Origin: a bacterium
GTDB taxonomy: Bacteria; UBP14; UBA6098; JAFGQG01
Assembly (NCBI GenBank): GCA_016930435.1
Contig: JAFGGQ010000116.1
Location: 1 to 50,763 of the forward strand
Reading direction: 5' to 3'
DNA length: 50,763 nt
Below the pieces are notes generated by a model. It was not told the origin of the DNA. It searched no databases and saw only the letters and a list, made by a program, of their open reading frames with translations. A program made the position numbers and the translations under genes. Of this stretch, positions 4,018 through 21,563 are shown piece by piece; positions within the stretch are counted from its first letter, which is position 1; every line of letters begins with the position of its first letter.

Positions 4018-4042
4018 TATAGATTTGCCAAGGAGAATTCCA

Positions 4043-4522
4043 TTGTTAAAAGAAACCGGAATTATTTCTGAAGAAGAGTTAAACAAGATATTACCTGATG
4101 AGGAACGGAGAAAAAAGGGTCCCTTTGCAGTTGTAGAATGTGTGGAGGAAATCCCTTGCGATCCCTGTACCGCAGCATGTCCGTTCGGGGCAATACCTCC
4201 ATTTGATAATGTTAATGAGGTTCCAAGTGTTGATTTCGATAAATGCAATGGCTGTGGAATCTGTATTGCCCTTTGCCCGGGAGTTGCCATATTTGTGGTA
4301 GATGAAACATATACTGCGGATAAAGCTCTGCTTAAACTGCCCTATGAATTTGTCCCGCTTCCTGGTAAAGGCGAAATGGTAGGATGCCTGGACCGCTCAG
4401 GTGGGGAGATATGCAAAGGCATCGTAGTAAGGGTCCAAAAACACCCTTCAAAAACCAATATTATCTGGCTGGAAATACCGCTGGATTTTTCACAGAAGGT
4501 CAGAAATATTAAACTGAAATAA
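4043..4522 (+). CDS. 4Fe-4S dicluster ferredoxin-like protein, third member of the oxidoreductase operon
   Basis: There are two cysteine groups: C33/C39/C42/C46 (CDPCTAACP) and C68/C71/C74/C78 (CNGCGICIALCP). The second is a canonical 4Fe-4S motif. The first has C-x5-C spacing and is less standard. A hydrophilic helical leader precedes them and a beta-rich tail of about 75 residues follows. TTG at 4043 is the best start because AAGGAG at 4030-4035 lies 7 nt before it; a TTG at 4025 lies before that site. The gene follows the flavoprotein gene by 25 nt. It probably carries electrons for the same complex. A catalytic amine-oxidising subunit (GlyOx/DAO fold) is not encoded nearby. Confidence 0.82.
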   Translation: MLKETGIISEEELNKILPDEERRKKGPFAVVECVEEIPCDPCTAACPFGAIPPFDNVNEVPSVDFDKCNGCGICIALCPGVAIFVVDETYTADKALLKLPYEFVPLPGKGEMVGCLDRSGGEICKGIVVRVQKHPSKTNIIWLEIPLDFSQKVRNIKLK

Positions 4523-4546
4523 TAAGTGATTTTAATCAATCGCTTA
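4523..4546 (+). terminator. weak hairpin after the ferredoxin gene
   Basis: TAAGTGATT and AATCGCTTA pair over 9 positions (one G-T) around a 6-nt loop, immediately after the stop codon. No T-run follows, so intrinsic termination is uncertain. The rest of 4547-4906 holds the repeat element and the fur promoter but no credible gene. Confidence 0.3.
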
Positions 4547-4627
4547 ATGCATTAGAGTCTTGAAGTAAAAAAAATGCCCAATCGAAAAGAAATGATACCC
4601 CAATTATCCAGGCGTTCGTTTATTCAA

Positions 4628-4799
4628 CCAGTTTAATGCATTTGAAATTAACTATAATGCCTGAAATATCGAAAAACAGGTTATTAGAATATAAACTTCG
4701 GAATAAAATTTGCGTTTTTTGTACAATTCGTAATACTCATAAATACATGTTTATCAAATATATAACTTATATTCAACATTATCAACTGCATTTTACGGG
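4628..4799 (+). repeat. MITE-like dispersed repeat, copy 1
   Basis: This 172-bp AT-rich intergenic element matches the reverse complement of 19092-19264 at about 92 percent (hand alignment: roughly 13 substitutions and one 1-nt indel). The ends are imperfect inverted repeats: CCAGTTTAATGCATTTG at the left and the complement of CCCGTAAAATGCAGTTG at the right, 13 of 17 matching. The flanks (TTCAA left, TATCA right) show no clear target duplication. It lies between the ferredoxin gene and fur. Short reading frames inside it are not preserved between copies past a 1-nt indel. Confidence 0.85.
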
Positions 4800-4906
4800 T
4801 ATCAATGGTGACCGGTAGCAGTAATGCTTTAAAAAAACTCAGTTTTATGTTATTAGGCTCCGAAATAACAAAAGACAAATGGCTAAAGATTTATTGAATT
4901 ATAAAC

Positions 4907-4934
4907 TTGACAATTATTCAAAGTGTATTATTAT
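4907..4934 (+). promoter_or_regulatory. sigma-70 promoter of the fur-family gene
   Basis: A perfect TTGACA at 4907-4912 is followed after 16 nt by TATTAT at 4929-4934. Transcription would begin near 4941, inside the palindrome at 4937-4957. This placement also rules out the upstream GTG at 4923 as the translation start. Confidence 0.7.
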
Positions 4935-4936
4935 GT

Positions 4937-4957
4937 TAATGAAAACAGTTTTCATTA
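4937..4957 (+). promoter_or_regulatory. Fur/PerR-type operator, probable autoregulation
   Basis: This is a perfect 10-1-10 palindrome: TAATGAAAAC, a central A, then GTTTTCATTA. Its core TGAAAAC-A-GTTTTCA has the 7-1-7 architecture of Fur-family boxes. It spans the predicted transcription start and ends 13 nt before the Fur-family ATG. Binding would block transcription initiation, so autorepression is inferred. Confidence 0.65.
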
Positions 4958-4970
4958 TGAGGTAAAAGAT

Positions 4971-5444
4971 ATGTACAAAAGACCATGGTGGAGAGGGCAG
5001 TTCAGGCAAAGGGGTTTCCGGGTTACTGTTCCCAGGGAGACTATTATAAAAGTATTAAGCGATCGCAAGAAGCACATGAGCGTGGAGGAGATATTTCACG
5101 AGGTTATCAAGACCAATCCCGGGGTTGGATTGACCACCGTTTACCGGACTCTTGAGTTATTAAGGAATATGGGTTTTGTTTCCAAACTTGATTTTGGAGA
5201 TGGTTTTTCCCGTTATGAGCTCACTATCGGAGATGGTTCTACACACCATCATCATCTTGTTTGCACGGGGTGCGGGAAGGTATTGGACTATTCTGATTTT
5301 GCGGAACAGGAAACAGCATTGATCCAGGAGATTGAAAGGGCTTTGAATAAGAAGTATAATTTCGTTATTAATACACATCAGATACATTTTTTTGGTTTAT
5401 GTAAAGATTGCAGGGGGGAACAGAATGAAATTGGGATTGTTTAA
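4971..5444 (+). CDS. Fur-family metal-responsive transcriptional regulator
   Basis: The N-terminal winged helix (about residues 10-85) carries the family segment GVGLTTVYRTLELL. The dimerisation domain has a histidine run H92-H95, CxxC at C98/C101 and a second CxxC at C144/C147, the usual structural zinc site. The full length is 158 residues. The ATG at 4971 has GAGG 8 nt upstream. Fur, PerR and Zur cannot be separated reliably by eye: the palindrome at its promoter is Fur-like, and the four-histidine run could serve the sensory site. The DUF5320 gene downstream has its own Fur-like palindrome, so the two may share a regulon. Confidence 0.92.
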   Translation: MYKRPWWRGQFRQRGFRVTVPRETIIKVLSDRKKHMSVEEIFHEVIKTNPGVGLTTVYRTLELLRNMGFVSKLDFGDGFSRYELTIGDGSTHHHHLVCTGCGKVLDYSDFAEQETALIQEIERALNKKYNFVINTHQIHFFGLCKDCRGEQNEIGIV

Positions 5445-17601: not shown

Positions 17602-19074
17602 ATGTCTCAACTTTCCCTTTCTGAACGCGCCGGGATTATATCCCTGGGAAGGTTCAGCGAAAATCTGGTCAATATTGCCGTTGCGGTTCTTCTTTCCCGG
17701 CTTCTGATTCAGCAGGACTATGGTACTTATCGTCAGGCCATTCTTGTAATTCACACCCTGATCTCAATACTGATGCTGGGTCTCCCCATGAGCATGTATT
17801 ACTTTATTCCAAGGATGAAGAGGGAAGAGCAAAAAGGTTTTGTGATACAGACCTTTCTTCTTCTTTCGGGCATAGGTTTGGTATTTACCCTTCTGGTCTT
17901 CAATTTTGCCCCGCTTATAGCCACTAAATTTAATAATCCGGATCTTACTCCATACCTGAAGATGTTCTCTTTTTACGGCTGGTTAACCCTCCCCGTGCTT
18001 TATGTGGAATCGTTATTAATCGCTATAGACAGGATAAAAAAGGCTTTCATAGCTTCTTTATTTATGAATCTGGGAAGGTTTGCAGCGATATTAGTCGCAG
18101 TGTTATGGAACAGGGATCTTGCAACTATATTCACTGCATATATCGTCTTTGCGGGTGTGAACCTGCTGGTTCTGACCTATTTTTCTGCTTCGGAATTCAA
18201 GACTTCAGCGATAAAGTTTAACCCCCGGCTTCTTCTCGCACAGATAAACTATGCTCTTCCCCTTGGGCTATCAGATGCCATCGGAGTATTAGCCCGTGAA
18301 ATCGACAAGATCTTCATTTCCCTCTTTTTTGTGGCAAGTCAGTATGCAGTTTATGCAAATGGTGCTATTAATATTCCATTTATACGAACCATTCCTGGCG
18401 CGGTGGGAGCGGTTCTGATGCCACGCTTTGTTACCCTGTTCAAGGAGAAAAATAACCGGGAACTTCTGCAAGTATGGCATGAGAGCATACGTTTAGTAGC
18501 TCTGATATTCTTACCGTTGATGTTCTATTCCATTATCTTTGCCAGGGATATTATGGTTCTTCTGTTCTCCCAAAACTATTCCGGAAGCGCCCTGCCTTTT
18601 ATGATATATAACCTGGGGATCGCCGGGATGGTTACCATCTGGGCGAATATGCTGGCGGCGATGGGGCATACCCGGGATATCCTGAAGATTTCCATTTTTG
18701 CGGTGCTTCTGAATATCCTCTTAAACTATATTTTGATACATACAATCGGGTTTTTAGGACCGGCAGTGGCAACCATTATTCAGAAATATGCGATTATTTT
18801 TATCTACCTTGTTATAATACGGAAAAAGCTTGGGGTTACTACCAAGGATGTATTCCCCTGGAAGAACTACGTGAACACTTTTCTGGTGGCTGGAGTCTGC
18901 GCATTACCACTGCTTACCCTCAACAGTATTCCTATGCCGGAAATCCTGCGCCTGGCAGCCGGTGGTTTGGCCTACCTGGTGATATTTGTGATCATTGCCC
19001 GGAACCTCGGTATATTAAAGGATGCTGACCTGACCATGCTTAAGAAATGGCTCAGTAATATCCGCCTACCTTAA
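17602..19074 (+). CDS. oligosaccharide flippase family protein (Wzx/MOP superfamily)
   Basis: This is a polytopic inner-membrane protein with roughly 12-14 hydrophobic helices and an N-terminal segment (LGRFSENLVNIAVAVLLSRLL, then QDYGTYRQ) typical of polysaccharide exporters of the MOP superfamily. It probably flips a lipid-linked glycan to the periplasmic side for surface polysaccharide or lipopolysaccharide assembly. A glycosyltransferase gene lies 3 kb downstream on the other strand, but no complete polysaccharide locus is present. The exact substrate is unknown. Confidence 0.9.
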   Translation: MSQLSLSERAGIISLGRFSENLVNIAVAVLLSRLLIQQDYGTYRQAILVIHTLISILMLGLPMSMYYFIPRMKREEQKGFVIQTFLLLSGIGLVFTLLVFNFAPLIATKFNNPDLTPYLKMFSFYGWLTLPVLYVESLLIAIDRIKKAFIASLFMNLGRFAAILVAVLWNRDLATIFTAYIVFAGVNLLVLTYFSASEFKTSAIKFNPRLLLAQINYALPLGLSDAIGVLAREIDKIFISLFFVASQYAVYANGAINIPFIRTIPGAVGAVLMPRFVTLFKEKNNRELLQVWHESIRLVALIFLPLMFYSIIFARDIMVLLFSQNYSGSALPFMIYNLGIAGMVTIWANMLAAMGHTRDILKISIFAVLLNILLNYILIHTIGFLGPAVATIIQKYAIIFIYLVIIRKKLGVTTKDVFPWKNYVNTFLVAGVCALPLLTLNSIPMPEILRLAAGGLAYLVIFVIIARNLGILKDADLTMLKKWLSNIRLP

Positions 19075-19091
19075 AATTCGAATGATATTAT

Positions 19092-19264
19092 CCCGTAAAA
19101 TGCAGTTGATAATGCTGAATATAAGTTATACATTTGATGAACATGTATTTATGAGTATTACGAATTGTACAAAGAATTGCAAATTTTATTCTGAAGTTTA
19201 TATTCTAATATCCTGTTTTTCGGTGTTTCAGGCATTATAGTTAATTGCAGCTGCATTAAACGGG
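19092..19264 (-). repeat. MITE-like dispersed repeat, copy 2
   Basis: This 173-bp element is inverted relative to copy 1 at 4628-4799. Its ends CCCGTAAAATGCAGTTG and the complement of CCCGTTTAATGCAGCTG form a terminal inverted repeat with 14 of 17 matches. ATTAT stands directly on both sides (19087-19091 and 19265-19269), which looks like a 5-bp target duplication. It begins 18 nt after the flippase stop. No transposase is encoded inside, so movement in trans is inferred. Confidence 0.87.
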
Positions 19265-19329
19265 ATTATTCATTATATTGCATTATGTTTCCGTGAATGT
19301 CAAGTTTTATGGGAATTTTGGGGTGCATT

Positions 19330-19469: not shown

Positions 19470-21563
19470 ATGGATCAAAATATACTGGACACGCCAATTG
19501 CCGAGGTTAAAGGTATAGGCCCTAAAAGAGCCTGGGCCTTTCAATCCGAAGATATTTTTACCCTTGGACATCTGCTCAATTTCATCCCCAGACGCTACCT
19601 GGATAAAAGGAAACCGACCCCTATCTGCGATCTGGGCCAGAAAGATTTCGCTCTGGTTAAAGGCATCGTTACATCCATAATCACCGTAGGTCTCGGAAAA
19701 GCATCCCGAATGGTGGTTACTATCGCCGATGAGACCAGCTACCTAAACCTGGTCTGGTTTAACTTTAAACATTTTATGCTGAAACAGTTCCGGAAGGGAC
19801 AGAAACTCCTGGCAAGCGGCGAGGTCAGTTACTTCAAGGGATTCCAGATGCTCCATCCCGAGATAGAATTATTGACAATAAAGAAAAATAATGATGATAA
19901 ATTATACTCTTTTCATCCCTGTTATTCGCTGCCCGAATCGCTCAAAAAAAAGGGCATTGGCCAAAAGGTATTGCGGAATATCATTCTCGATGCTTTGCAG
20001 AGAATTGAAAATATTGATGATCCCATACCGGAATCCATTCTGAAGGATCTCGATCTGCCATCTCTCATAACTGCTTACCGGGACCTTCATTTCCCTCAGG
20101 AACTGGAAAGGGCTATAAGAGGCCGGCAGCGCCTGGCTTTTAATGAACTGTTCTTTTTCCAGCTGATGATGGCAAAACGCCGGAGCGACAGTATCCAAAG
20201 TCAGATGGGAATTCAATTCAAACCTACTTGGAAACTGGTAAATTCCCTCATTAAAAGTCTGCCTTTTCAGCTCACCAACGCTCAGAAAAGGGTGCTTGCT
20301 GAGATCAAAGGGGACATGCTATCCGGTGGTCAAATGCACCGGCTTCTTGAAGGTGAAGTGGGTTCGGGTAAGACAATCGTTGCATTAATCGCCATGTTAA
20401 TGGCGGTTGAATCGGGTTTCCAGGCAGCTTTAATGGCCCCGACTGAGATACTGGCCTCCCAGCACTACCAGAAGATCCAGGTTTATCTTGAGCAATTCAA
20501 GGAGCTGAAAGTGGCTTTTTTAACCGGTGGTGTCTCAAAAGTCCAAAAAAACAAACTCAAGGATCAAATCGCCAGCGGCGAGATAAATATTCTGATCGGA
20601 ACCCATGCTCTTCTTCAGGGAGATGTTAAGCCATCTAAATTAGGCATTGTGGTGGTGGATGAGCAGCACCGGTTCGGTGTGATCCAGCGTTCAACATTAA
20701 GTGAAAAGGGTCTGAATCCGGAGATACTTGTGATGACCGCCACCCCTATTCCCCGTTCATTAGCGCTGGCGTATTTTGGAGACATGGATCTTTCCGTTAT
20801 CGATGAGTTGCCCCCGGGGCGCGCAAGTATCGTGACTTTTACCCGGGATGACCGCAAGAGAAGAGAACTATACAATTTCATAAGGAAGCAGGTGGAACAA
20901 GGCCGTCAGGCTTACTTCGTCTATCCACTGGTCGAGGAATCGGAAATCCTGGATTTGAAGGCGGCAACTCAAGCTTACGAGGAGATGACAGAAAGGGTAT
21001 TCCCTGAGCTTCGGGTGGACCTGATCCATGGACGGATGAAGGAGGAGCTTAAAAACGGGGTAATGGAGCGATTCCGGGCCGGCGAGAGTCATATTCTGGT
21101 ATCCACCACGGTAATCGAAGTGGGGATAGATGTTCCTAATGCCAATGTGATGGTTATCGAACATGCAGAACGTTTTGGTTTATCCCAGTTGCATCAGCTT
21201 CGCGGCCGTATCGGCAGGGGGGAGTTTAAGTCCTATTGTATCCTGATGGTGAAGCCTCCACTGTCCGAGAACGCTCAGCGCCGAATCCAGGTGATGTGCA
21301 AAACGGGCGACGGATTCAAGATTGCAGAAGAGGACCTCCGTATCCGTGGCCCCGGCTCGTTTTTCGGCATTCGTCAGCATGGCTTGCCCGACTTTGCCAT
21401 TGCCGATTTCGTGGAAGATAATATATTGATGCGAAAAGCACGGGAAGAAGCATTCGAATTGATAAAAGCAGATCCCGATTTGAACCTGAAGGAACATCAA
21501 TTATTACGGAAAGTATTTATTGGAGAGTATGAAAAGAAATTTCACCTGTATAATATTGGCTAA
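19470..21563 (+). CDS. recG: ATP-dependent DNA helicase RecG
   Basis: This branch-migration helicase acts on stalled replication forks and Holliday junctions. An N-terminal wedge/OB-fold region (about residues 1-230) precedes two helicase lobes. Walker A GEVGSGKT lies near 294-301, the DEQH box near 396-401, and motif VI (QLRGRIGRG) near 569. The C-terminus ends like the family. Length (697 residues) equals that of E. coli RecG, without the N-terminal extension seen in some lineages. No good ribosome-binding site is evident. An FmdE-like gene follows 51 nt downstream. Confidence 0.97.
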   Translation: MDQNILDTPIAEVKGIGPKRAWAFQSEDIFTLGHLLNFIPRRYLDKRKPTPICDLGQKDFALVKGIVTSIITVGLGKASRMVVTIADETSYLNLVWFNFKHFMLKQFRKGQKLLASGEVSYFKGFQMLHPEIELLTIKKNNDDKLYSFHPCYSLPESLKKKGIGQKVLRNIILDALQRIENIDDPIPESILKDLDLPSLITAYRDLHFPQELERAIRGRQRLAFNELFFFQLMMAKRRSDSIQSQMGIQFKPTWKLVNSLIKSLPFQLTNAQKRVLAEIKGDMLSGGQMHRLLEGEVGSGKTIVALIAMLMAVESGFQAALMAPTEILASQHYQKIQVYLEQFKELKVAFLTGGVSKVQKNKLKDQIASGEINILIGTHALLQGDVKPSKLGIVVVDEQHRFGVIQRSTLSEKGLNPEILVMTATPIPRSLALAYFGDMDLSVIDELPPGRASIVTFTRDDRKRRELYNFIRKQVEQGRQAYFVYPLVEESEILDLKAATQAYEEMTERVFPELRVDLIHGRMKEELKNGVMERFRAGESHILVSTTVIEVGIDVPNANVMVIEHAERFGLSQLHQLRGRIGRGEFKSYCILMVKPPLSENAQRRIQVMCKTGDGFKIAEEDLRIRGPGSFFGIRQHGLPDFAIADFVEDNILMRKAREEAFELIKADPDLNLKEHQLLRKVFIGEYEKKFHLYNIG

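Follow-up and report, generated by a model that had tools for sequence, protein, structure and literature searches.

The window, by which we mean the whole stretch of 50,763 nucleotides analysed here, is contig 155 (C155) of a 2.85-Mb draft genome that comprises 180 contigs and is 90% complete. It carries two full-length copies of a short repeat in opposite orientations, the first flanked by genes for a 4Fe-4S protein and a FUR-family regulator, the second by a flippase-like gene and recG (Table 1). The preliminary description had reported two inverted copies, about 92 percent alike, with imperfect inverted ends and with ATTAT repeats on either side of the second. Its coordinates are correct and each of these features is present: blastn aligns 4628–4799 to the complement of 19092–19264 over the full length at 91.9% identity (173 columns, one 1-base indel, E = 5e-68), while the second-best match within the window has E = 0.02 and nothing comparable occurs elsewhere in it. 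The G+C content of the element is 26% versus 44% for the window. Copy 1 has decayed ends, and its target duplication is likewise decayed, with TTCAA on the left and TATCA on the right; copy 2 is the better specimen.

Table 1. Positions of the two MITE copies, their ends and flanks, and the neighbouring genes in the window
Feature	Position	Strand	Remarks
MITE copy 1, 172 bp, full length	4628..4799	+	Between 4Fe-4S protein gene (4025-4522) and FUR-family regulator gene
Copy 1 left flank	4623..4627	.	TTCAA, WTNAW target
Copy 1 left terminal inverted repeat	4628..4644	+	CCAGTTTAATGCATTTG, two changes vs consensus CCCGTTTAATGCAGTTG
Copy 1 right terminal inverted repeat	4783..4799	-	Reverse complement CCCGTAAAATGCAGTTG
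Copy 1 right flank	4800-4804		TATCA, mismatching left flank TTCAA
FUR-family regulator gene	ORF 4923-5444		Likely ATG at 4971
Flippase-like gene	17602-19074		
MITE copy 2, 173 bp, full length	19092..19264	-	17 bp after flippase-like gene, ~205 bp before recG
Copy 2 target site duplication	19087..19091	.	ATTAT
Copy 2 right terminal inverted repeat	19092..19108	+	CCCGTAAAATGCAGTTG
Copy 2 left terminal inverted repeat	19248..19264	-	CCCGTTTAATGCAGCTG
Copy 2 target site duplication	19265..19269	.	ATTAT
recG	19470-21563		

A dispersed family with conserved ends and a palindromic target

A search of the element's own genome returned at least 40 matches at E ≤ 1e-27, among 73 candidates. We also derived a profile from the full-length copies; run on fetched loci, a sample of the genome, it found 55 distinct pieces, corresponding to at least 47 elements once halves at contig ends are allowed for. 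Contig ends interrupt eight left and nine right pieces, and the copy number in the sampled loci is therefore given as 47 to 55, not the 2 of the preliminary description. With up to 3 mismatches allowed, the end pattern occurs in the same genome 43 times in forward and 41 times in reverse orientation, whereas the reversed control pattern gave 0 and 3. Nineteen copies have both ends and lie inside contigs in unrelated flanks, with lengths of 164–174 bp. Their divergence from the consensus is mostly 3.5–6.4%, with one copy at 8.7% and two outliers at 18–20%, and copies differ pairwise by a median of 9%, the closest pair by 4.7%. The burst that produced them is therefore old enough to have allowed divergence, and the assembled copies include no recent identical ones. 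Many contigs end inside the element, and the assembly probably breaks there because the middle of the element is nearly identical between copies.

On a simple assignment of genes by ORF, almost every copy is intergenic, and all three gene arrangements are represented. The family thus combines the features of a MITE: it is shorter than 500 bp, has conserved terminal inverted repeats, is dispersed in unrelated flanks and is accompanied by a target duplication. At 172 bp the element is too short to house a transposase gene, and neither the preliminary description nor a reading of the alignment finds a reading frame common to the copies.

The ends of the 19 two-ended copies are CCCGTTTAATGCAGTTG...CAACTGCATTTTACGGG. 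Read inward, the left end is CCCGTTTAATGCAGTTG and the right end CCCGTAAAATGCAGTTG, with the TT/AA difference between them repeated in most copies; since some left ends (C94, C113 and C140) carry the right-type AAA, the two ends seem interchangeable. Perfect 5-bp target duplications flank 10 of these 19 copies, and in none of the 19 do the flanks match at exactly 3, 4 or 6–9 bp. When left and right flanks were paired at random, a mean of 2.4 perfect 5-bp matches was obtained, and 10 was never reached in 20,000 shuffles. Flank matches of length 2 number 11, as a consequence of the target being palindromic: WTNAW occurs at 59 of 73 junctions versus 3.4% of background positions, and the information content of those 73 junctions is restricted to the 5 bp adjoining the element. 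The middle base of the target is the same on both sides in most pairs, which indicates a direct duplication as opposed to an extended inverted repeat. A worry raised beforehand, that the ends might vary between copies, is thereby settled, as both the ends and the 5-bp duplication are conserved.

Five copies (C94, C97, C106, C122 and C156) lie a single base downstream of a gene's stop, which falls within the WTNAW target. Since the stop codon is part of the duplicated target, the gene is left intact in each case. Targeting of stop codons was considered and rejected: between 3.5 and 6.8% of intergenic WTNAW sites overlap a stop, so that 2–3 such copies are expected of about 50, and five is no clear excess.

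An empty site, which the preliminary description had named as a check, has a counterpart in G001, which belongs to another genus and is the one further genome in this taxonomic family. Reductase, 4Fe-4S protein and FUR genes follow one another in G001 as they do here, with 62% identity for the FUR-family gene and 76% and 63% for the two genes upstream. The gap between the 4Fe-4S and FUR genes is 148 bp in G001 and holds no element, versus 448 bp with copy 1 here. The alignment before FUR starts at about window position 4903, with the element upstream of this conserved region and the rest of the spacer weakly alignable. The orthologous interval supports an insertion of copy 1, as a comparison between genera whose reach stops short of the precise pre-insertion sequence.

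Other elements with the same ends and shortened copies

At C28:871-1045 lies a single-copy element of 175 bp whose interior differs from that of the MITE family; only the outer 35–57 bp, which include the ends, are shared, and TTTAA is perfectly duplicated on either side. The same transposase probably moved this element too; conservation of the ends alone is what would be expected if these were the recognition sites of the enzyme.

Eleven copies inside contigs are truncated on the right, and six or seven of them break at about positions 88–95. At the break, an internal TGCATTTT (consensus positions 84–91) repeats the TGCATTTT of the right end (positions 161–168). Truncation at the internal repeat recurs at C5:10327, C97:7965, C101:3088, C109, C137 and C169, and the copy at C97:7965 is the exact joining product of both repeats (...TTTGCATTTTACGGG), with its ATAAT duplication kept. 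We infer from these junctions that the short derivatives arose by deletion through the short repeat TGCATTTT, and some of them may then have transposed as a form of about 100 bp, with subsequent loss of the right end.

Two further observations concern the surroundings of such pieces. Two truncated copies, near C169 8056 and C25 9726, run into AAGGCTATATCATA or AGGCTATATCATA, which may represent another short repeat family of the same genome; in C169 the sequence after the truncated copy forms the palindrome AGGCTATATCATAGCCT. Separately, an almost perfect left end flanked by ATTAT, with no MITE interior, lies at C14:25142-25161 upstream of a gene for a secreted-type protein, with promoter-like sequence between the two, and is a candidate end remnant or a chance match.

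Proposed mobilisation in trans and the search for the partner transposase

We take 4628–4799 to be a copy of a non-autonomous MITE family that was moved in trans by a DDE transposase through its CCCGTWWAATGCAGTTG ends and a 5-bp WTNAW target, and whose interior has decayed, with a probability of about 0.96. A non-autonomous transposon was already among the readings of the preliminary description, and it is supported by what was observed directly: about 50 copies, conserved ends, 5-bp duplications with a defined target motif, the element-free interval in the related genus, and the C28 element, which has these ends around a different interior. Mechanistically, a DDE-type transposase encoded elsewhere would have recognised the ends of about 17 bp, CCCGTWWAATGCAGTTG, excised or copied the element, and inserted it at staggered breaks in the palindromic WTNAW target, which would leave the 5-bp duplication. 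The class of the enzyme (DDE) and its action in trans are the parts of this scheme that we infer. The interior, at 74% A+T, most likely derives from an insertion sequence whose inside has decayed, and it shows no visible function of its own. The family would now be inactive, its transposase lost or missing from the draft. Three points stand against this reading as a whole: the assembly contains no transposase with these ends, the element-free interval comes from another genus and falls short of a precise pre-insertion sequence, and copy 1 is without a perfect duplication.

The preliminary description had likewise seen no transposase and had pointed to a search for one with the same ends; none was found in the draft assembly. 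MITEs usually, though not necessarily, have an autonomous partner of this kind. With the end pattern at up to 3 mismatches, no gene flanked by an inward-facing end pair was found in the assembly, a draft 90% complete and broken at repeats, and the 84 matches in this genome are MITE copies, truncated copies and end remnants of about 20 bp only. The sites at C14:25161 and C156:17484 were considered as ends preceding transposase genes and rejected, as the adjoining frames, from translations judged by eye, encode a secreted-type protein and a papain-like protease. Five transposase Pfam families (PF01609, PF13701, PF00665, PF01526 and PF13751), which include IS4/IS5-type, IS1380, rve-type and Tn3 transposases, are absent from the assembly. 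The ends CCCGTWWAATGCAGTTG are absent, at up to 2 mismatches, from 16 relatives of the phylum, G001 included. The exact end pattern had no match in GTDB r220 and IMG/VR, where records of the genome itself may be left out, and the whole element had none in plasmids and phages.

A tentative refinement of the MITE reading is that the mobilising enzyme was an IS1380-family transposase that the genome has since lost. Members of that family are reported to have short imperfect ends and 5-bp duplications, and the tips of their ends start with CC, as do those of the MITE. A link has been drawn between IS1380 and piggyBac, whose target is a palindromic AT sequence adjacent to CCC ends. The likeness to IS1380 elements (IS1247, ISEcp1) lies otherwise in the 5-bp duplication and the length of the ends: IS1247 has ends of 16 bp with 13 matches and a 5-bp duplication (PMC3281130 Table 2). 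A PF13701 transposase gene is also present in G001 (C117, locus positions 236–1465), interrupted by one stop codon and without MITE ends in its surroundings. However, the genome of the MITE itself has no PF13701 match, the ends CCCGTWWAATGCAGTTG are missing from G001 as a whole at up to 2 mismatches, and 5-bp AT-rich duplications occur in other groups too, e.g. Tn3. The MITE differs further from the IS1380 family in that no autonomous element with its ends was found in the databases and genomes searched. As a search for the defining transposase gave no match in this genome, IS1380 stays a possible lead, on balance unlikely, and membership is not claimed.

Among prokaryotic MITEs, Chunjie of Geobacter uraniireducens, with 38 copies of 178–235 bp and 57 partial ones, and QMITE1/QMITE2 of Coxiella burnetii are similar in being shorter than 500 bp and AT-rich, with terminal inverted repeats that are imperfect and target duplications that erode with age; they too lie mostly between genes, as tens of full along with many truncated copies (reviewed in PMC10969869, PMC5896051). 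In contrast to the family described here, they have other end sequences and targets: QMITE duplications are 2–3 or 7–11 bp long and of variable sequence rather than a 5-bp palindromic motif, and QMITEs give rise to small RNAs (PMC10969869, PMC5896051), of which we see no sign for this MITE. Tn3-derived inverted-repeat miniature elements (TIMEs, PMC4133298) are also non-autonomous and miniature, with 5-bp AT-rich duplications, but a TIME-type element described there has ends of 40 bp (PMC4133298) versus about 17 bp starting with CCCG here, and the target of the MITE is a fixed palindrome. A TIME or other Tn3-derived miniature element was rejected, as the expected Tn3-type ends of about 38–40 bp are not seen and PF01526 is absent from the genome. 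What we describe is thus a new MITE family, lineage-specific, well delimited and of a known kind, with a partner not found in the assembly. That it is the first known trace of an undescribed group of DDE transposases with a strict palindromic 5-bp WTNAW target, in a poorly sampled phylum (17 genomes), is conceivable, though improbable.

Readings of the repeat as RNA or as a duplication

The preliminary description had offered, as an alternative, a repeat with an RNA role given its placement after genes. A structured RNA or terminator, with a copy number that reflects function, could account for most copies being intergenic and several lying directly after stop codons, and whole copies fold somewhat better than shuffles. 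The better folding arises because the ends pair, however: for either strand, copies trimmed of their 20-bp ends give folding z-scores near 0 (−1.3 to +2.1), so that the interior folds at shuffle level. The consensus folds at −6.2 kcal/mol and shows no net covariation (a compensatory change occurs at 1 of 26 pairs, in one sequence), window positions 4400–5000 around copy 1 match no Rfam family at E ≤ 1, no terminator-like site lies near that copy, promoter-like sites are at the level of shuffles, and the orientation of copies relative to genes is mixed. We therefore consider an RNA role very improbable. A segmental duplication or an assembly artefact behind the two copies has next to no plausibility, for although the draft is in many contigs and many end inside the element, the 19 complete copies lie inside contigs in unrelated flanks, 10 with perfect target duplications, and copies that differ by a median of 9%, and by no less than 4.7%, are not one misassembled sequence.

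The repeat at 4628–4799 and its relatives add, from a bacterial phylum of which few genomes have been sampled, a well-documented MITE family whose 5-bp target is cleanly palindromic. The family seems confined to one species, with no enzyme detected in the assembly, and its copies break the draft at many places. Together, the ends and the target allow the missing transposase to be probed for precisely. In broader terms the case is ordinary: a lineage-specific burst of a non-autonomous element that is now decaying.
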